DNA of 64,000 nucleotides from Stackebrandtia endophytica (GTDB taxonomy: Bacteria; Actinomycetota; Actinomycetes; Mycobacteriales; Micromonosporaceae), in assembly GCF_006716355.1 (NCBI RefSeq), contig NZ_VFOW01000001.1:3038001-3102000 (forward strand), in the 5' to 3' direction. Position numbers and translations under genes: made by a program. Positions 420-9,282 of this stretch are shown here, one piece after another. Below the pieces are notes generated by a model that saw nothing but the letters and a program-made list of their open reading frames with translations, was not told the DNA's origin and ran no database searches. Position 1 is the first letter of the stretch, and each line of letters starts with the position of its first letter.

Positions 420-1856
420 ATGATGAGTCCGGGCAACAAGCTCGGTGGCCGGTATCGGCTCGACGAGCGTATTGCCACCGGCGGCATGGGGGATGTGTGG
501 CGTGCCACCGATGAGGTGTTGGGGCGCCAGGTCGCGGCCAAGGTGTTGTTGCCGTCCCTGTTGAACGAGCCGGGCTTCGTCGAACGATTCCGTGGCGAGG
601 CACGGGTCGTGGCCACCCTGACCCACCCCAACATCGTGCGGGTCTACGACTACGGCGAGAACCCGATGCCCGGTGGCGGCCAGGTCGCCTACCTGATCAT
701 GGAGTTCATCGAGGGTGAGGCGTTGACGGCTCGCCTGCAACAGAAGGGCCGACTGACCGTCGAGGAGGCGCTGCCGATCCTCGCGCAGGCCGCCGAGGCT
801 CTCGACGCGGCTCACCAGCACGGCATCATCCACCGTGACGTGAAGCCGGGCAACCTGTTGCTGGCCCCCGGTGACAAGGTGATGCTGACCGACTTCGGGA
901 TCGCCCGTTCGGCGTTGACCGGCGGTTTGACCCAGGCCGGTTCGGTGTTGGGCACGGCCGCCTACATTTCGCCGGAGCAGGCGACCGGGCAGAACATCAC
1001 CGGTCAGGCCGACGTCTACTCGTTGGGCATCGTCGCCTATCAGTGTCTGGCGGGCCGGCGTCCGTACGACAGTGACAATCCGGTCGAGCTGGCCATGCGG
1101 CACGTCAACGACACTCCCGCTCCGCTGCCGCCGGACGTCTCCGAACCGGCACGGCAGTTCGTCGACCGCGCGCTGTCCAAGGACCTGTCGGCGCGGTTTG
1201 CGACCGGTCAGGCCATGGCCGATGCGGCACGTGCCGCACTGTCGGGGACCACGGTGCCCGGCGGGATGCCGGCTGCCGGGGGTGGTTACGCACCCGGAGT
1301 GGCTTCGGGTTCGGCGGTTCCGCCGCCCGGACGTGGACTCGACGACCGGACGTCGGTCGGTATGCCGTTCGATCCGGCGACGCCGGCACCGCAGCAGAAG
1401 CGCAATCGAATGATGTTGTTCGTGGCGATCGCGGTGTTGCTGGTCGTGGTCGCGGCGGCCGGGGTGTACGCGTTGGTGAGCGGTAATCAGGGTGCCGACG
1501 CCAATCTCGCCGATGGTGAGGAGACGACCTCCCAGTCGGCGGAGGAGAGCGCCGACACGGGGATGAGCATCGACGTTGCGACATACCTGAACCAGAATCC
1601 TCAGCAGGTGAAGGCTGAGCTGGAGGAACTCGGGTATGAGACCGTGACCATCGACGGAACCGGCATGTTTGTGAGTGATGTCACACCAAATGAACCGGCT
1701 GGGTTCGAAACCCCCATAACGGTTCACGCGAGTATGACAAAGGTGAATCCCGACGACCCGGGAACCGGGCCTGGCGACGACCAGTCCGACGGCCCGGGCA
1801 GTTCCGACCCGAGCGATGATTCCAGTTGCCTGGGCGTCCTCTGTATTCCCGAGTAG
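420..1856 (+). CDS. pknA: Membrane Ser/Thr protein kinase, PknA type
   Basis: 478 aa. The kinase domain is near residues 10-270, with a Gly-rich loop (ATGGMGDVW), Lys41, the HRD loop ending in Asp140, DFG at 158-160 and a GTAAYISPEQ activation end. One membrane segment is at about 331-353. The roughly 110-residue outer part holds a single weak PASTA-like unit (VATYLNQNPQQVKAELEELG) and ends in an acidic Ser/Asp tail with CLGVLC. In the family these kinases phosphorylate cell-division and wall-synthesis proteins. The AAGGA about nine bases upstream selects the ATG at 420; the next codon is also ATG. It lies between pbpA and pknB in the same direction and is probably co-transcribed with both. 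Confidence 0.93.
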   Translation: MMSPGNKLGGRYRLDERIATGGMGDVWRATDEVLGRQVAAKVLLPSLLNEPGFVERFRGEARVVATLTHPNIVRVYDYGENPMPGGGQVAYLIMEFIEGEALTARLQQKGRLTVEEALPILAQAAEALDAAHQHGIIHRDVKPGNLLLAPGDKVMLTDFGIARSALTGGLTQAGSVLGTAAYISPEQATGQNITGQADVYSLGIVAYQCLAGRRPYDSDNPVELAMRHVNDTPAPLPPDVSEPARQFVDRALSKDLSARFATGQAMADAARAALSGTTVPGGMPAAGGGYAPGVASGSAVPPPGRGLDDRTSVGMPFDPATPAPQQKRNRMMLFVAIAVLLVVVAAAGVYALVSGNQGADANLADGEETTSQSAEESADTGMSIDVATYLNQNPQQVKAELEELGYETVTIDGTGMFVSDVTPNEPAGFETPITVHASMTKVNPDDPGTGPGDDQSDGPGSSDPSDDSSCLGVLCIPE

Positions 1857-1888
1857 TACCAGCACACTGACACAAAGGATATGTAACG

Positions 1889-3712
1889 ATGACGGCGCAG
1901 CCAAGACTGCTCGGCGGCCGGTACGAGATCGGTGGCGTCCTCGGCTATGGAGGCATGGCTGAGGTACATCGCGGTCGCGACCTGCGCCTGGGGCGGGACG
2001 TCGCCATCAAGATGCTGCGCAACGACTTGGCGCGGGACGAGACCTTCCTGACCCGGTTCCGACGCGAAGCCCAGAACGCGGCCTCCTTGAACCATCCTTC
2101 GATCGTCGCCGTGTACGACACCGGTGAGGACGCCGGTAACAGCGCGGTCCCCTACATCGTCATGGAGTACGTCGAGGGGCGCACCCTCAAAGAGGTGTTG
2201 ACGGCGGAGGGCCGCCTGGCACCTCGGCGGGCCTGCGAGATGGTCGCCGACGTATGCGCGGCGCTGGACTTCAGCCACCGCCACCAGATCATTCACCGGG
2301 ATGTCAAGCCCGGCAACGTCATGCTGGCGACCAACGGCCAGGTCAAGGTGATGGACTTCGGCATCGCCCGCGCCATGGCTGCCGGTCAGGCCACCATGAC
2401 GCAGACCTCGGCGGTCATCGGGACCGCGCAGTACCTGTCGCCGGAGCAGGCGCGCGGTGAGACCGTCGACCGCCGCTCCGACGTCTACGCCACCGGCTGT
2501 CTGTTGTTCGAGCTGCTGTGTGGTGACCCGCCGTTCACCGGTGACAATCCGGTCAGCGTCGCGTATCAGCACGTTCGGGAGGCCCCCCGCACTCCGAGCT
2601 CCATCAACCCGGATGTTCCGCCGTCGGTGGACGCGATCGTGTTGAAGGCGTTGGCGAAGAACCCCGCGAATCGGTACCAGACCGCCGGGGAGATGCGCGA
2701 CGACCTGGAGCGCGCGATCGCGGGTCGACCGGTCATGGCGACCCCGTTGATGGGGGACGACGAACGTACTCAGCTGCTGGCGGGTGCCTCCGACGATGAG
2801 ACTCGGGCGGTTCCGGCAGCGGTGGAGGAGCCGCGCAAGAACCGCAAGGGCGTTATCGCACTGTGGACGGTGGCGTCGTTGTTGCTGGTCGCGGCGTTGG
2901 GCTACGGGTTCTGGTATCTCACCGAGGGCAGCAAGGTCGATGTGCCCAATGTGGTCGGTGAGGAGCAGGAGGTCGCGGAGGCCGCGATCCGGGAGGCGGG
3001 CCTGGTGCCCACCGCCGTTCCGGTGTTGTCCGAGGACGATCAGGAGGGGCTCGTCGTCACGCAGAGTCCCGACGGTCTCGAACGGGTCTCGGTGGGCTCG
3101 GAGGTGAGGTTGGAGGTCGGCACCGGTAGCGGCTTGGTCGAGGTCCCGGACCTGTCGGGGGCCAAGACCACCAACGAAGTCATCGACTTGCTCAACGACG
3201 TGAATCTGAGTGTCACCTTCGAGGATGTCGACGGTGTCGAACCCGGCTTCGTGTCGCAGGATCCGCCGAAGGGCGAGAAGGTCGAGCCCAAGACGAAGGT
3301 CACGGTCGAGTGGTCGAGGGGAAACCTGAGCCAGGTGCCGAACGTGGTCGGGGAAACCGAGGACAACGCCTGCAACACACTGTCCAACAATGGTTTCAGC
3401 TGTTCGGTCACCTATGTCACCGGTGATCGTCCGCTCGGTACGGTGTTGAGCCAGGATCCGGGTGCCGGTCAGGAACGCGAGGGCGGCCAGGTCAACCTGA
3501 CGGTGGTCGGGGTGTCGGTGCCGAGTCTGGTCGGCATGACCATCGAGGAGGCTCAAGCGGCGATGCCGGACGGGCTGACCCTGTCGCCACCCGACGGAGC
3601 CGAACCCGATTGGGAGATCACGAGTCAGAGTCCCAGTGACGGCGACGTCGTCAAGGGGGGAACCACGGTGACGGTCGAGGCCGAGTCCAGTGGTGGCCTA
3701 CCGACCGGTTAG
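1889..3712 (+). CDS. pknB: Ser/Thr protein kinase with four PASTA domains, PknB
   Basis: 607 aa. The N-terminal kinase has Lys41, HRD at 136-138 and DFG at 156-158. The activation loop is ATMTQTSAVIGTAQYLSPEQ, whose Thr171 and Thr173 occupy the positions autophosphorylated in mycobacterial PknB. A juxtamembrane linker is followed by a membrane helix at about 320-341. Four PASTA repeats then run to the end (starts KVDVPNVVG, LVEVPDLSG, LSQVPNVVG, VSVPSLVGM). PASTA modules bind muropeptide or lipid II fragments in the family, so the protein senses wall precursors outside and signals inside. It starts 32 bp after pknA, with AAAGGAT upstream, and is followed by a strong hairpin terminator. Confidence 0.96.
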   Translation: MTAQPRLLGGRYEIGGVLGYGGMAEVHRGRDLRLGRDVAIKMLRNDLARDETFLTRFRREAQNAASLNHPSIVAVYDTGEDAGNSAVPYIVMEYVEGRTLKEVLTAEGRLAPRRACEMVADVCAALDFSHRHQIIHRDVKPGNVMLATNGQVKVMDFGIARAMAAGQATMTQTSAVIGTAQYLSPEQARGETVDRRSDVYATGCLLFELLCGDPPFTGDNPVSVAYQHVREAPRTPSSINPDVPPSVDAIVLKALAKNPANRYQTAGEMRDDLERAIAGRPVMATPLMGDDERTQLLAGASDDETRAVPAAVEEPRKNRKGVIALWTVASLLLVAALGYGFWYLTEGSKVDVPNVVGEEQEVAEAAIREAGLVPTAVPVLSEDDQEGLVVTQSPDGLERVSVGSEVRLEVGTGSGLVEVPDLSGAKTTNEVIDLLNDVNLSVTFEDVDGVEPGFVSQDPPKGEKVEPKTKVTVEWSRGNLSQVPNVVGETEDNACNTLSNNGFSCSVTYVTGDRPLGTVLSQDPGAGQEREGGQVNLTVVGVSVPSLVGMTIEEAQAAMPDGLTLSPPDGAEPDWEITSQSPSDGDVVKGGTTVTVEAESSGGLPTG

Positions 3713-3762
3713 CCGTCCTCGACCACGGACACGTGTGAACTCAAGACCCGCGTGAACGTCAG

Positions 3763-3796
3763 ATCGGCCCGCATCGCCTCGGTGGTGCGGGCCGAT
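3763..3796 (+). terminator. Hairpin terminator after pknB
   Basis: The arms ATCGGCCCGCA (3763-3773) and TGCGGGCCGAT (3786-3796) are exact reverse complements around a 12-base loop. The stem can extend inward by two pairs, one a G-U. There is no long T run, as is common in high-GC actinobacteria. It closes the pbpA-pknA-pknB unit. Confidence 0.75.
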
Positions 3797-4008
3797 TCCG
3801 TGTGCGTCGGCGGCACCCGGACGGGCCGTCGCCGACGCGCAACAATGCGAGGACAATGGTTGCATCCCTTACGATCCGGTTCGTCCCTCACACCAGGTCA
3901 TGTCTTCGAATTGGATTGCCGTGTCGGCCGCTTGCGGTTCGTTCCAGGAAGGCAGTCGTTGAACACCATCGATAGCTCATGTGTCGACCTCCCCCGCGGG
4001 ACGGTGAC

Positions 4009-4833
4009 ATGGCGCGACTAGATCACTCGATATCCACCGTGCGGTTCGGCGTACTCGGCCAGGTGAGGATCTGCGGCACCGAGGACGTCCTTCCGGCGAC
4101 CTACCTGCGACGGGGGTTGCTCGCGCTGTTGTTGTTGCACGGCAACCAGTTGGTGCCTCAGGAACGGATCATCCGGTTGTTGTGGTCGCAGCCGCCCCTA
4201 TCGGCCCGCGCCAATCTGCGAAGTCAACTGTCTCAACTGCGGCATGATCTCGACGAGGCCGTGCCGGGGCTGTCGAATCGGATCACGGTGCAGCGGTCGG
4301 CTCGCGGTGGCGGTGGTGGTGGCATTCGGATGGCGATCGATGAGCGTGAGGTCGACCTGTTGGAGGTCGAGAGGCTGGTGACGGCGGCGCAGTTGAACGT
4401 CAAGCAGCGGGATTCGGTGACCGAGTCGCTGTTTCAGTGCCATCGCGCCGCCAACCTGTGGCGTGGTGACTTCGGGGTCGATCTGCCCGACACCGACTGG
4501 TTTCGCGCCAAGAGCGCCGCGATGGCGGAGTTGCGGTGCGTCATGGCCGAGACCCTGCACACCGCGGAGTTGACGACCGGGCACTACCACCACGCTCTGG
4601 TGGGCTTGAACACCGCGATCGCCGAATACCCGTACCGCGACCGATTGTGGCTGCTGCTGGTCGGTGGATATTTCCTCGCGGGTCAACCGACGAAGGCGTT
4701 GGACTCGATGCGTTCCTGCCGGTCGAAGTATCGAGAGGTGGGACTCGACGCCCCGTCGGTATTGGTGCAGCTGCATCGTCCGATGCTTGACGATGATCGC
4801 GCCGCTGTTAAGGCGATTCTCCAGATCCTCTGA
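4009..4833 (+). CDS. SARP-type transcriptional activator (winged helix plus BTAD)
   Basis: 274 aa from the ATG at 4009; an ATG at 3979 in frame is possible but lacks a ribosome site. Residues about 5-95 are an OmpR-like winged helix (VRFGVLGQVRI, RRGLLALLLLHGNQLVPQE, NLRSQLSQLRHDL). The rest is the helical bacterial transcriptional activation domain (LWRGDFGVDLPDTDWF, YPYRDRLWLLLVGGYFLAGQ, ALDSMRSCRSKYREVGLDA). The length fits the small SARP class (ActII-ORF4, RedD), which activates antibiotic or peptide gene clusters through direct heptamer repeats at 11-bp spacing. A matching repeat block lies immediately downstream, before the precursor peptide gene, so this is probably the pathway-specific activator of the cassette. 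Confidence 0.9.
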   Translation: MARLDHSISTVRFGVLGQVRICGTEDVLPATYLRRGLLALLLLHGNQLVPQERIIRLLWSQPPLSARANLRSQLSQLRHDLDEAVPGLSNRITVQRSARGGGGGGIRMAIDEREVDLLEVERLVTAAQLNVKQRDSVTESLFQCHRAANLWRGDFGVDLPDTDWFRAKSAAMAELRCVMAETLHTAELTTGHYHHALVGLNTAIAEYPYRDRLWLLLVGGYFLAGQPTKALDSMRSCRSKYREVGLDAPSVLVQLHRPMLDDDRAAVKAILQIL

Positions 4834-4859
4834 GCCACAACACTTCTACGGATTCAACC

Positions 4860-4903
4860 GGATGCGTTACTGGTGCGTTACGGATGCGTGAGGTCGATAA
4901 CTT
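4860..4903 (+). promoter_or_regulatory. Three 11-bp direct repeats and -10: predicted SARP site
   Basis: Three head-to-tail units, GGATGCGTTAC (4860-4870), TGGTGCGTTAC (4871-4881) and GGATGCGTGAG (4882-4892), repeat at exactly 11 bp. A weak -10-like GATAAC/TAACTT is at 4896-4903, a few bases after the last repeat. SARPs bind direct repeats of this period just upstream of -10 and take the place of a -35 element, and none is visible here. The site lies 27 bp after the SARP gene and about 80 bp before the precursor ATG. The pattern is read directly from sequence; binding is inference. Confidence 0.7.
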
Positions 4904-4984
4904 TCCTCTGAGTTCACCGGAGATCACCGGAAACTCTACTGTGGATTAGCTCGATAGAGCTGCCGCGCCCATATAGGAGGAATC

Positions 4985-5080
4985 ATGATCAAGTTGGCCA
5001 CCAGCAACAACGCCACCCCCGCCGCGACCGGTCGTGGAAACGGTGTCTGTGGCGCCGGATGTGCGACCCAGCCCAACTAG
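4985..5080 (+). CDS. Putative RiPP precursor peptide (31 aa, Cys pair)
   Basis: 31 aa, beginning MIKLATSNNATPAATGRG and ending NGVCGAGCATQPN, with Cys22 and Cys26 as the only cysteines. A strong ribosome site (AGGAGG, 4976-4981) sits just before the ATG. I infer a precursor because of its size, its Asn/Ala/Thr leader-like first half, a Gly-rich Cys core at the C-terminus, and the next gene, a radical SAM/SPASM enzyme of the peptide-maturase type. Thioether (sactipeptide or ranthipeptide-like) or other carbon-based links at the CGAGC core are possible. I do not recognise the family. No separate leader peptidase is in the cassette, and a processing site cannot be assigned, although GRG at 16-18 or the following Gly are candidates. 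Confidence 0.72.
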   Translation: MIKLATSNNATPAATGRGNGVCGAGCATQPN

Positions 5081-5091
5081 CGGTAGTCGCC

Positions 5092-5117
5092 GGGGTGTCC
5101 GGTTCGCTGGGCACCCC
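5092..5117 (+). terminator. Attenuating hairpin between precursor and rSAM genes
   Basis: GGGGTGTCC (5092-5100) pairs with GGGCACCCC (5109-5117), nine pairs including one G-U, around loop GGTTCGCT. No T tract follows. RiPP operons often place such a stem just after the precursor gene, so that precursor mRNA is abundant and stable and only part of the transcription reaches the enzyme gene. It starts 11 bases after the precursor stop. Confidence 0.6.
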
Positions 5118-5311
5118 ATGGCGAAGGAGTGTTTCGGCATTGCCTGAGAAGCTGTCTCTGGTCCTCGTTCGTCGCGCAACAGAACAGCAGGTTCGAAGAC
5201 GGCTTCTGCGACACCCCACCCGCCTATCGGCCGTCGAATGACCCGTGGCGCATCACATTGCCGCCGAGGTCGACCCCCATCGTGCCCAGTCGCAGTCAGC
5301 GGAGAACAGTG

Positions 5312-6661
5312 ATGCAGCGATCCTTCTACACCGTCATCAGTAAGAACGCCTACCGTGCCCCCGACGGTGGACTATATCGATTCATCTACGCCACCCGGAC
5401 CGCGACGGCCGCCGCGTTCCCCAGCACCGTGTTGGACGCCCTCGAAGCAGGCGATCCACAGTCGATAGACGTCGAATCGTTGGACCAGCTGCGCGACATC
5501 CTCGCCGTCGACGACGAGGGCGTCGACGAACTCGGTGCCGTGCTCGACCATCAACGCGCCCGGTCCCGCGACTATCGGGAACGCAACTTCACTCTGTTGC
5601 CGACCTCGTACTGCAACATGGGTTGCGAATACTGCGGGCAGCTGCATCGAAAGGGCGGGCTGCCCCGAAACCATCGCGACTCCATCGCCGAACGGGTCGT
5701 CTCGGCCATTGAGGACCCGGCCACCGAATCGCTGTTCGTCAACTGGTTCGGGGCCGAGCCGCTGGTGGGCTATCCGGTCATCCGGGAGTTGAGTCAGAAG
5801 TTCACCGCCAAGTGCGCTGAACTGGGCAAGGCGTACCGGGCGGCCATGGTCACCAACGGTTCCCTGTTGACCCACGAGAAGGCGGTGGCGCTGCATCGCG
5901 AGGACCGGGTGGTGCAGTTCGAGATCACCCTGGACGGCCCGAAGCGCATCCACGACGTCCACCGGCCCATGAAGAACGGCAAGGGATCGTTCGACCACAT
6001 CATCACCGTGTTGCGTGAGTGCCTCGCCGATCCGCAGCTGGCGGACCTCAACTTCACGATACGAACCAATGTAGACGTCAACAACGTCGACTGGGTCCCC
6101 GAGTACATCGAGGAGATCCACGGACACGGTCTGGCCCAACCGAATGTGGCCTTCTACTTCGCGCCGGTCTACCCCTGGGGCAACGACGTCTCCGCCGTAG
6201 AGATCGACAGGCGCGAATTCAGTCACCGGCAGGTCGAGTGGTACACCACCATGAACGAACTCGGCATCGGAATCACCCTGCTGCCCGAGCACGTCACCGG
6301 ATCGGTGTGCATCGCGACCAACCGGGGAAACGAGGTCATCAGCAGCACCGGCAACGTGTTCTCCTGCTCCGAGCATCCGCTGGTCCCGCAGTATGAGGCC
6401 ACCGCGGGAATCGCGAAACTGGGAACCCTGCAATTGCCGATTCGACCCGTCGGCCAGTTCGACGACTGGCACGACAGTATCGAGGCCGGTGAATCGGATT
6501 GTCGAGGCTGCAAGATGCTGCCGGTATGCGGCGGTGCCTGTCCGAAACAGTGGCGTGACGGCAATGTCGCCTGCCCGCCGTTCAAATACACCGTGCAGGA
6601 ACGGTTCGACCTGATGGCCCGGTTCAACGGCTTCACCGTCGAGGCGAAGGAAGCCGTGTGA
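5312..6661 (+). CDS. Radical SAM/SPASM peptide-modifying enzyme
   Basis: 449 aa from the ATG at 5312 (GGAGA seven bases upstream; a GTG precedes it directly). Residues 1-95 form an N-terminal region of unknown fold that could recognise a leader. The radical SAM motif is Cys101-NMG-Cys105-EY-Cys108. The C-terminal SPASM region has Cys352 and then the run Cys397-RG-Cys400-x5-Cys406-GGA-Cys410 with Cys421, enough for two auxiliary 4Fe-4S clusters. SPASM enzymes of this length commonly make thioether or C-C links in ribosomal peptides. The adjacent 31-aa Cys peptide is the likely substrate. Upstream reading continues open to 5129, but the extra residues look non-coding. The MFS gene follows after 13 bp, so the two are co-transcribed. 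Confidence 0.9.
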   Translation: MQRSFYTVISKNAYRAPDGGLYRFIYATRTATAAAFPSTVLDALEAGDPQSIDVESLDQLRDILAVDDEGVDELGAVLDHQRARSRDYRERNFTLLPTSYCNMGCEYCGQLHRKGGLPRNHRDSIAERVVSAIEDPATESLFVNWFGAEPLVGYPVIRELSQKFTAKCAELGKAYRAAMVTNGSLLTHEKAVALHREDRVVQFEITLDGPKRIHDVHRPMKNGKGSFDHIITVLRECLADPQLADLNFTIRTNVDVNNVDWVPEYIEEIHGHGLAQPNVAFYFAPVYPWGNDVSAVEIDRREFSHRQVEWYTTMNELGIGITLLPEHVTGSVCIATNRGNEVISSTGNVFSCSEHPLVPQYEATAGIAKLGTLQLPIRPVGQFDDWHDSIEAGESDCRGCKMLPVCGGACPKQWRDGNVACPPFKYTVQERFDLMARFNGFTVEAKEAV

Positions 6662-6674
6662 ACGGACGACGACC

Positions 6675-8000
6675 GTGTTGATCAACCGGCCCTACCGGCT
6701 GATGTTGGCCATCAACATCATCAGCGCCCACGGCTACTCCGGCGTCAACAACGCCTGGCGTATCTGGATCGGCGCGGTGCTGCTGGCCGGCGTGACGTTC
6801 TCCCCGATGGTGATCGCCGCGGTGTCGTTGGCGGCCACCATCGCCACGATCCTCACCGCGCCGTGGGCCGGCGCCGTCACCGAGCGATTGAACAAGTGGC
6901 GGGTCGCCATCACTGCGGAGTACGTCGACGCGGGCGCCTTCCTGATCGGCGGATTGTTGCTGTGGTTCGGATCCGAGCTGCACTGGTGGTTCGCGGTCGC
7001 GGTGATCGCGGTGACTGCGACGGTGCGGGCGATCTCGGAGTCGTTCAACGACGCCGCCGGGATGGTGATCTTTCGCGGCATCGTCCCGGAACGACAGTTC
7101 GGCAAGGGAGTGGGTTACCTTCAGGCCGCCAGCGCCTCCGGCAACAGTGTCGGTCCGGCGGTCGGTGCGACCCTGCTGGCGTTGTCGAACATCGTCTTCG
7201 TCTACCTGGTGAGCATGTGCGCCAGCCTGGCCAACATCGTCATGCTGCGCAGAATGCGCCGGACGTCCGGGGTGAGTCTGGATCCGATGGCCGACACCGC
7301 GAGCCGTTTGAGTGTGCGACGAACCGGCGGCGACGTCATGGAGTCCATTCGCATCGTCGGTCGGGATCGCCACCTGCGCAACATCTTCATCCAGTCGATG
7401 ATCGTCAGCGGCGCGATGGCGATGTTCGTGACGGTGGAACTGTTCTTCATCCTGGAGAACCTGCGGGTCGACGCGTGGTGGTACGGCGTGGCCGTCGGCC
7501 TGTTCGGAGCGGGCACCTTCCTGGGCTCGCTGGCGGCCTCGCAGGTGTCCGACCGATTCGATGCGGGAACCCTGGTCTGGGTGCTGTTGGCGACCAGCGG
7601 CGTCACGTTGCTGGTGTTGTCGCGCATGACGGCGCTGGAGTTCGCGTTGCCGTTGAACGTCCTGTTCGGATTGAGTGTCGGCGCGTTGAACTCGGTGCTG
7701 GCACCGCTGTTCCTGCGGTTGACCGCGCCGGAGTTCACCGCCCGGGTCAGTTCGTTGTTCAGCACGGTGTCGCGCAGCAGTTCGCTGTTGTTCACCGCGG
7801 TCAGTAGCGGCCTCGCGGGGACCGTCCTGGTAGGACTGAATGAGCAGTGGGGATGGATTCGGTTTCAACGCATCGACGTACTGTTCGCCGCGGCCGGTCT
7901 CTGCCTGCTGGTGGCGGCCGGATGGTCCCGATACGGACTGGCCGGGGTCTCCGCCGAGGCCGCCGACCGTCGCGAGGCGGCGAAGGCCGGCACCGAATGA
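6675..8000 (+). CDS. MFS transporter, likely exporter of the modified peptide
   Basis: 441 aa with about 12 hydrophobic helices, for example ALLLWFGSELHWWFAVAVIA-type segments and IMFVTVELFFILENL in the second half. It starts with GTG at 6675, 13 bp after the radical SAM gene. The MFS loop between helices 2 and 3 is seen as APWAGAVTERLNKWR. It resembles the MFS group with efflux roles (enterobactin exporter, macrolide efflux type). Its position as last gene of the cassette suggests that it exports the finished product or gives self-protection. There is no ABC peptidase-transporter, so the leader must be removed elsewhere. The substrate is inferred only from context. Confidence 0.85.
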   Translation: MLINRPYRLMLAINIISAHGYSGVNNAWRIWIGAVLLAGVTFSPMVIAAVSLAATIATILTAPWAGAVTERLNKWRVAITAEYVDAGAFLIGGLLLWFGSELHWWFAVAVIAVTATVRAISESFNDAAGMVIFRGIVPERQFGKGVGYLQAASASGNSVGPAVGATLLALSNIVFVYLVSMCASLANIVMLRRMRRTSGVSLDPMADTASRLSVRRTGGDVMESIRIVGRDRHLRNIFIQSMIVSGAMAMFVTVELFFILENLRVDAWWYGVAVGLFGAGTFLGSLAASQVSDRFDAGTLVWVLLATSGVTLLVLSRMTALEFALPLNVLFGLSVGALNSVLAPLFLRLTAPEFTARVSSLFSTVSRSSSLLFTAVSSGLAGTVLVGLNEQWGWIRFQRIDVLFAAAGLCLLVAAGWSRYGLAGVSAEAADRREAAKAGTE

Positions 8001-8012
8001 CCACCGAAACGT

Positions 8013-8046
8013 CGTGGGCCGCCGACCTCTTGGTCGGCGGCCCACG
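8013..8046. terminator. Bidirectional terminator between MFS gene and fahA
   Basis: CGTGGGCCGCCGACC (8013-8027) and GGTCGGCGGCCCACG (8032-8046) are perfect 15-bp reverse complements around the loop TCTT. It separates the plus-strand MFS gene from the minus-strand fahA and can serve both. Confidence 0.85.
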
Positions 8047-8064
8047 GAACGTGAAGAGGATGCC

Positions 8065-9282
8065 TCAGCCGATGGCCGGTCGAATCGTTCCGGTCACATC
8101 ACCCAGTCCGATCGTGGTGCCACGTGGTCCCGGTGCGGTCGCGGTGATCGACACGGTGTCCCCGTCGACGAGGAACGTCCGAATGGAACCGTCGGCCAGG
8201 GTGACCGGCTCGTTGCCCGACCAGGTCAGTTCGAGGAAGCTGCCGCGTTGGTGAGGCTGCGGACCGGACACGGTACCGGAGGCGTAGAAGTCGCCCGGTC
8301 GAAGCGACGCCCCGTTGACCGTCATGTGAGCCAACTGCTGCGCGGGGGTCCAGTACATCTCCGCGAACGGGGGACGTGCCACCTCGGTGCCGTTCCAGTT
8401 GACCGACAGGGTGATGTCGTACCCGTACCGGTCGGACTCCTTCAGGTACGGCAGAACCGCCGGCTCCTGCACCGGAGCGGGCACCCGGGCGGCCGCCAAC
8501 GCGTCCAACGGGGTGACCCAGGTTCCGATGGACGTCGCGAACGACTTGCCCAGGAACGGACCCAGCGGTTGGTACTCCCAGGCCTGGATGTCACGGGCCG
8601 ACCAGTCGTTGACCAGGACGACGCCGAAGACGTGTTCGGTGAACCCGTCGGCGGCGACCGAGGAGCCGAGCTGCGACGGCGCGCCGACGACGAAACCGAC
8701 CTCGGCCTCGATGTCGAGACGGGCACTGGGGCCGAACGTCAGGTCGCCCTCGGGGGTACGGCGCTGTCCACTGGGGCGCACGATCTCGGTGCCCGACGGG
8801 ACCAGGGTCCCCGCGCGACCGTGGTAGCCGACCGGAAGGTGCTTCCAGTTGGGCATCAACGGGTCGCCGTTCGGACGGAAGATCTTGCCCAGGTTGACGG
8901 CGTGGTGCTCCGAGGAGTAGAAGTCCACATAGTCCGCCGGAGTGAACGGCATGTGCATGATGACCCGCGAGACCGGCGTCAACAACTGCGAGACGGTGGC
9001 CTTCAACTCGACGTTGGTGAGCGCCTCCTGAAGTTGGCTGCGCACCTTGCCCCAGGTTTCGCTTCCCGCCGCCAGCAACGGATTCAGGTTGGCCGCACCC
9101 AGCGCCGAGCAGGTGGTGCATCCGGGGCAGCTGCTGCCGGAGACCAGCGCCCGAACATCCAGGACTTGGTCGCCGATGCGGACACCGATACGGGGTGACG
9201 CGTCATCTCGGGTGGAGAAGACACCGTAGGGCAGATGGTGAACGCTGTAGAGACTGTCGGCAGCGCCTTCGACCCAGCTCAC
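8065..9282 (-). CDS. fahA: Fumarylacetoacetase
   Basis: 405 aa. It hydrolyses 4-fumarylacetoacetate to fumarate and acetoacetate, the last step of tyrosine and homogentisate breakdown. The N-terminal domain (YGVFSTRDDASPRIGVRIGD) is followed by the FAH fold with FYSSEHHAVNLGKIFRP, the metal-site region DIEAEVGFVVG, NDWSARDIQAWEYQPLGPF and GTVSGP near the end. The length is typical of fumarylacetoacetase rather than of the shorter FAH-domain hydrolases. The start is GTG at 9282 with AAGGAG about nine bases before it; that ribosome site lies inside the last codons of the upstream gene, so the two are translationally coupled. Homogentisate dioxygenase is divergent about 1 kb away. Confidence 0.95.
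   Translation of the reverse strand: MSWVEGAADSLYSVHHLPYGVFSTRDDASPRIGVRIGDQVLDVRALVSGSSCPGCTTCSALGAANLNPLLAAGSETWGKVRSQLQEALTNVELKATVSQLLTPVSRVIMHMPFTPADYVDFYSSEHHAVNLGKIFRPNGDPLMPNWKHLPVGYHGRAGTLVPSGTEIVRPSGQRRTPEGDLTFGPSARLDIEAEVGFVVGAPSQLGSSVAADGFTEHVFGVVLVNDWSARDIQAWEYQPLGPFLGKSFATSIGTWVTPLDALAAARVPAPVQEPAVLPYLKESDRYGYDITLSVNWNGTEVARPPFAEMYWTPAQQLAHMTVNGASLRPGDFYASGTVSGPQPHQRGSFLELTWSGNEPVTLADGSIRTFLVDGDTVSITATAPGPRGTTIGLGDVTGTIRPAIG

Follow-up and report, generated by a model that had tools for sequence, protein, structure and literature searches.

An Asn-x-x-Cys peptide cassette with a radical SAM/SPASM enzyme and a candidate SARP operator in Stackebrandtia endophytica

Introduction

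The closest described counterpart of the cassette considered here is the NxxcA/NxxcB pair of Streptococcus orisratti, from the NxxC subfamily of radical S-adenosylmethionine (SAM) ribosomally synthesised and post-translationally modified peptides (RaS-RiPPs), in which NxxcB joins Cys23 to the C-beta of Asn20 in NxxcA (PMC8326336, PMC13361665). Among ranthipeptides, the PapB/freyrasin and CteB/SCIFF systems are described as forming Cys thioethers to Asp C-beta or Thr C-gamma, the bonds of freyrasin (PapB) running to Asp C-beta. The stretch analysed here, referred to as the window, comprises 64,000 nucleotides of Stackebrandtia endophytica (contig NZ_VFOW01000001.1, positions 3,038,001 to 3,102,000) and carries four consecutive genes, for a Streptomyces antibiotic regulatory protein (SARP), a 31-residue peptide, a radical SAM/SPASM enzyme and a major facilitator superfamily (MFS) protein.

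Like NxxcA/NxxcB, this locus combines an Asn-x-x-Cys core, a short precursor and a SPASM radical SAM enzyme, which stands beside a Cys-bearing precursor as in ranthipeptides. In contrast, NxxcA/NxxcB is streptococcal and listed among Rgg-linked systems, whereas the present cassette is actinobacterial, SARP-linked and equipped with a predicted MFS exporter; its regulator is a BTAD protein and not of the Rgg/SHP type (SHP peptides were not searched for). The original prediction could not place the peptide in a named RiPP family, but by its motif it resembles NxxcA, a known Asn-Cys beta-thioether RiPP. The claim is that the system works like NxxcB, not that its enzyme is an NxxcB. On the sequence evidence, the RiPP cassette is real and well delimited, and its motif assigns it to a known chemical kind. 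It is likely ranthipeptide-like and SARP-switched, with the SPASM enzyme forming an Asn19-Cys22 beta-thioether and the MFS protein exporting the product.

Results and Discussion

Precursor Peptide and the Asn-x-x-Cys Motif

The compact unit of four plus-strand genes proposed from the letters alone was recovered in full, with every open reading frame (ORF) at its predicted place (Table 1). The strong Shine-Dalgarno (SD) site attributed to the 31-residue ORF was likewise found, AGGAGGA ending 3 nt upstream of the ATG.

Enzyme homologues were collected from the genomes of 41 relatives, from GTDB species genomes and from 354 genomes of the taxonomic family, 39 of which hold a homologue at E <= 1e-25 and 29 (own genome included) at E <= 1e-90. 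A peptide-pattern scan of GTDB genomes, which reaches close relatives only, gave 3 loci. At the level of the order (298 genomes, E <= 1e-60) and of the phylum (396 genomes, E <= 1e-70, with no more than four candidates scored per genome among the matches listed), searches returned the enzyme from its own genome only; the enzyme family therefore looks rare outside the taxonomic family.

At the 32 close loci (enzyme identity of at least 36%), every SD-led ORF of 18-95 codons within 1 kb upstream of the enzyme was taken, disregarding Cys. Under this motif-blind rule, [ND]xxC occurs in the last 18 residues of 29 of 67 ORFs, at 26/32 loci, although the ORF at -956 in L061, counted among the 29, seems spurious. 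The controls gave 0/46 ORFs on the opposite strand and none among the 67 peptides reversed, which indicates that the 31-residue ORF is more than a chance reading frame. With the L075 precursor, which has a weaker SD and was found with Cys in view, 27/32 close loci carry a precursor, so that the small adjacent ORF expected beside enzyme homologues is indeed present at most of them. Because the motif is kept at 26/32 loci, the conserved element is N19-G-V-C22.

The 32 collected precursors comprise those of the 27 close loci, the distant loci L037, L038 and L087, and two plasmid loci; those of L075, L037, L038 and L087 were found with the motif or Cys in view, and the plasmid pair was taken by position. 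Within this set, [ND]xxC is present in 32/32 and NxxC in 30/32. The residue three before the first C-terminal Cys is Asn in 29, Asp in 2 and Gly in 1, every other position being far less constrained. The exception is the L034 precursor, which reads NCGC and NCSC and thus holds two NxxC motifs. The window precursor was aligned with those of L031, L034 and L035; the window, L031 and L035 share the reading NxxC-GxxC, and the second Cys, C26, appears to matter in the nearest clade only. Consequently, the conserved Cys core originally predicted is retained, but the family signature is Asn-x-x-Cys (N19-C22) and not VCGxGC, which is ruled out as a family core and approached by the core clade alone. 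Leaders vary by clade, the peptides being 23-33 or 52-77 residues long, some with a hydrophobic N-terminus, and tandem precursor copies occur in L032, L033 and L038.

Four plasmid homologues were also fetched, two of which carry the NxxC motif. In the Streptomyces plasmid homologue (37% enzyme identity) the peptide ends in LNGNC, with the motif NGNC, and an MFS gene lies downstream; the Rhizobium etli plasmid homologue (34%) is preceded by a 77-residue ORF with NSGC.

A stem-loop follows the window precursor, and others occupy the corresponding site in L031, L034, L035 and L032 (z -3.25 to -4.66) and, more weakly, in L056 (z -1.73). The element is thus present at all six loci folded and clearly beyond shuffles in five; it is perhaps a transcript stabiliser or a partial read-through element.

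Radical SAM/SPASM Enzyme and Exporter

The radical SAM cysteines named in the original prediction, C101, C105 and C108, are invariant in 9 aligned sequences, as are C333, C352, C397, C400, C406, C410 and C421 of the SPASM region, whose Cys set is complete. The best-scoring models for the window enzyme are peptide maturases. Of the curated models, TIGR04463 fits it (194.2 bits) and the seven relatives scanned (range 161-201 bits) best; membership is rejected by score, as the cut-off of 525 bits is reached by 0/8 enzymes. The NCBIfam PapB model scores 94 bits, far below its cut-off of 340, and no NxxcB-named model appears in the best 25 of 56 NCBIfam matches. The best reading is that the enzyme belongs to an unnamed subfamily, as judged from these scores. 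In the tree, the window, L034, L035 and L031 form one core clade (support 100/99), all four with the gene order precursor-enzyme-MFS.

An AlphaFold model was built from a four-sequence alignment, with a predicted local distance difference test score of 62 and most of residues 324-427 below 50. Its residues before 86 form strands followed by three helices, an order that may correspond to a RiPP recognition element (RRE), the leader-binding domain. The best PDB fold match is 5wgg, whose title refers to thioether bond formation in sactipeptides and which is taken here to be CteB. TigE (rank 4 among the fold matches), presumably a peptide-modifying enzyme, and SuiB also match, with sequence compared as well as fold. 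The fold match and the PapB score are points of likeness to CteB and PapB; unlike those systems, the window precursor has two Cys, one of them conserved, and the acceptor Asn precedes the Cys.

The exporter had been thought unusual in being an MFS protein. It is not odd in this family, since an MFS gene lies directly 3' of the enzyme in 4/4 core-clade loci; the window protein is 37% identical to that at the same place in L034, and an MFS gene belonging to this similarity cluster is found no farther than about 5 kb from the enzyme in 15/43 loci. TIGR00900 gives the window protein 98.7 bits, below the model cut-off.

Proposed Chemistry and Its Alternatives

In the proposed pathway, the SARP would bind three heptamers spaced at 11 bp and turn on a precursor-enzyme-exporter transcript, and the SPASM enzyme would grip the leader of the 31-residue peptide. 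A 5'-deoxyadenosyl radical would then abstract one hydrogen of Asn19, the C-beta being its most likely position, after which the Cys22 thiol would join that carbon, closing a four-residue thioether ring with loss of 2 Da. Cys26 would stay free, or form a second ring in the core clade. After removal of the leader by a peptidase encoded elsewhere, the MFS protein would export the product, which may be bioactive. The Asn-Cys cross-link is inferred by analogy: since the residue three positions ahead of Cys is fixed as Asn or Asp, an NxxcA-type bond between Asn19 and Cys22 is the simplest reading.

The same residues could be joined differently in a sactipeptide, where Cys would be linked to alpha-carbons, for example Gly23-Cys26 together with Asn19-Cys22 as two four-residue rings. 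The NxxC-GxxC arrangement shared with L031 and L035 fits such a product, Gly has no beta carbon, and streptosactin is described as carrying a pair of four-residue sactionine rings (PMC13361665). However, the family does not conserve Cys26, and the partner residue is almost always Asn or Asp, which is also the case in NxxcA and freyrasin, both beta-thioether peptides; these points make this product unlikely. A further departure would be another radical change at NxxC (epimerisation, a C-C bond or a cyclopropane), with Cys serving only as hydrogen donor or cluster ligand; the rank of TigE among the fold matches agrees with it, and SPASM enzymes give other products, such as the cyclopropylglycine of TvgB (PMC9062424). 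The fixed Asn-Cys spacing and the replacement of Asn by Asp nevertheless suit a thioether better, and such a change is quite improbable. It would be most surprising if the short ORF were a regulatory leader peptide instead of an enzyme substrate: the stem-loop between it and the enzyme gene would suit that role, but the amino-acid motif is common to several genera and a Rhizobium plasmid, the best models of the enzyme are peptide maturases, and precursors are repeated in tandem at three loci.

Several observations count against the Asn19-Cys22 thioether cassette. The enzyme model is weak, with an unreliable SPASM part and a template modelling (TM) score of about 0.44 to its best match. In the last 18 codons of 7 close precursor pairs, compared ungapped, there is no synonymous excess and changes are mostly non-synonymous. 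At five of the 32 close loci (L036, L072, L073, L077 and L080) no same-strand NxxC ORF was found, nor was a convincing NxxC precursor at the distant family homologues L081-L086, L088 and L089 (26-31% identity). As for the plasmids, the Rhizobium motif lies internal in its ORF, no NxxC ORF was found beside the Thermus homologue, and the Methylomagnum homologue, a named TIGR04463 member, adjoins CefA, a protein with Cys at every fifth position. Finally, a SARP-like gene lies near the enzyme in only 5/43 loci, a count that includes the window and a gene some 6 kb distant.

Regulator and Operator-like Repeats

SARP sites are described as heptamers with 4-nt spacers, in PMC4393881 and further SARP literature, the last heptamer lying 8 bp before the -10 element (PMC4393881). 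The cassette resembles the systems of cluster-situated SARPs such as DnrI, ActII-ORF4, PimR and NosP in this arrangement: by sequence, a BTAD protein is followed by 11-bp heptamer repeats ahead of the putative target promoter. The triple repeat has 19/21 pairwise identities, a value reached by 0/400 shuffles, 11 is its best lag, and it is the sole site scoring at least 17 in the window; with up to 3 mismatches allowed, the genome contains it once, and six related genomes have no match. The putative -10 element TAACTT was not among the hits of the consensus promoter scan, and the promoter/terminator consensus scans gave nothing useful. The SARP itself scores 25.3 bits with PF00486, just under the cut-off of 26.2, and would be 10 residues longer if translation began at the alternative ATG at 3979.

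A counterpart in L034 reads TATGCGT-TACA-TATGCGA-TAAG-AGTGCGT, with TAGTCT 8 bp on (P 0.0075), although a 14-bp lag scores above the 11-bp one there (17 vs 15 of 21). In L035, an 11-bp repeat occurs in two copies (P about 0.02) but the three-copy score is at chance, and no operator-like repeat beyond chance was found in L031, L032, L033 or L056. Since the five genomes searched hold 6 to 26 SARP-like genes each, co-location is a weak argument and the operator a stronger one. SARP control of the cassette, as first proposed, gains support from the triple repeat. The pairing of a SARP with a RiPP cluster has a precedent in NosP, given for the thiopeptide nosiheptide in a SARP review. The clusters in that review are polyketide, nonribosomal peptide synthetase, hybrid, nucleoside, terpenoid and thiopeptide ones, and the terms "radical SAM" and "RiPP" are absent from its main text.

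The distant homologues L081-L086, L088 and L089 stand beside a LuxR-family AAA regulator (L081 scanned as representative).

Cassette Boundaries

The matches to the flanking kinase and fumarylacetoacetase (FAH) genes, named according to the present reading, are separated by 4,358 bp in the window and by 63-293 bp in all four same-genus genomes compared (G001-G004), in which significant alignment is limited to the flanks of the insertion. It follows that the cassette forms a single insertion unit.

Table 1. Features of the cassette, its flanks and the LanD-like genes of related loci
Feature	Position	Strand	Basis or remark
PASTA-type Ser/Thr kinase gene	1889-3712		flanks insertion
Discrete insertion with cassette	3713..8062	.	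edges approximate
Small SARP regulator (Trans_reg_C-like + BTAD), 274 aa	4009..4833	+	PF03704, E 6e-19
Putative SARP operator, GATGCGT-TACT-GGTGCGT-TACG-GATGCGT	4861..4889	+	11-bp period; between SARP and precursor genes
Putative -10 element, TAACTT	4898..4903	+	8 bp after third heptamer; position read from sequence
Shine-Dalgarno site, AGGAGGA	4975..4981	+	sequence
Precursor peptide, 31 aa	4985-5080	+	sequence MIKLATSNNATPAATGRGNGVCGAGCATQPN
Precursor motif N19-G-V-C22	codons 5039-5041 (N19), 5048-5050 (C22)	+	
Second precursor Cys, C26	codon 5060-5062	+	
Stem-loop, no T run	5087..5124	+	directly 3' of precursor stop; fold z -2.96
Radical SAM/SPASM peptide maturase, 449 aa, RRE-like N-terminal region	5312..6661	+	PF04055, E 4.5e-13
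MFS exporter (predicted), 441 aa	6675..8000	+	PF07690, E 1e-16, above cut-off
Perfect 15-bp inverted repeat, 4-nt loop; possible terminator	8013..8046	.	closes cassette
Fumarylacetoacetase gene	8065-9282	-	flanks insertion
LanD/CoaC-like flavoprotein	L032:7182-7931, L056:7661-8461, L061:7596-8189, L038:7315-8013		
LanD/CoaC-like flavoprotein, further loci	L033, L037, L057, L058, L087		

LanD-like Branch and Neighbouring Genes in Relatives

A flavoprotein (PF02441) adjoins the NxxC enzyme in 9/43 loci. Its nearest NCBIfam models are CoaBC/CoaC, below their cut-offs, and PxMNxxM[WY], presumably the LanD-type cysteine-decarboxylase motif, is present in the four sequences inspected. The precursor ends in Cys at 9/9 loci with the flavoprotein vs 6/23 without (Fisher 1.8e-4, kinship ignored), three of the nine having been found with the motif or Cys in view; the nine loci fall in two separate tree parts. 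This suggests that oxidative decarboxylation of the C-terminus accompanies the Asn-Cys link, which hints at an aminovinyl-cysteine analogue built on Asn. It is conceivable, if doubtful, that radical SAM macrocycles of a new kind arise in both branches, the NxxC-GxxC of the window clade giving Asn C-beta and Gly C-alpha rings and, jointly with this, the LanD relatives giving a decarboxylated Asn-linked Cys, that is, the aminovinyl-cysteine analogue made without any dehydratase. Searches of open-licence PubMed Central papers turned up no actinobacterial NxxC peptide and no NxxC system with LanD, and those aimed at the ring predicted for this branch did not find it.

B12-type radical SAM proteins (L032:3059-5239 and 1069-3024, L033, L056:8436-10580) share loci with the NxxC enzyme and the LanD-like gene; for the proteins scanned, one from L032 and one from L056, the nearest models were those of RiPP C-methyltransferases, with scores below cut-off. 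An ATP-grasp peptide maturase-like protein, also below cut-off, is encoded at L056:5130-6131, just upstream of the NxxC precursor. At L060, L063, L065-L068, L070 and L071, the NxxC precursors have a hydrophobic, signal-like N-terminus, and nearby genes belong to clusters whose representatives in L065 carry lantibiotic-dehydratase C-terminal and SagB-like domains and a SagD-type YcaO; these are possible hybrid RiPP clusters.

Conclusions

An orphan enzyme and an ORF below gene-calling size become a testable family, which looks like an unexplored group of cross-linked peptides with an Asn-x-x-Cys signature and in which the precursors of the close loci display the substrate rule [Asn/Asp]-x-x-Cys. 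If the proposed chemistry is correct, Asn-Cys thioether RiPPs would be present beyond streptococci, in actinobacteria and on a rhizobial plasmid, such rings could be made from a short natural substrate, and a SARP operator would be tied to a radical SAM peptide. The subfamily would have its own regulation, together with a promising LanD side branch.

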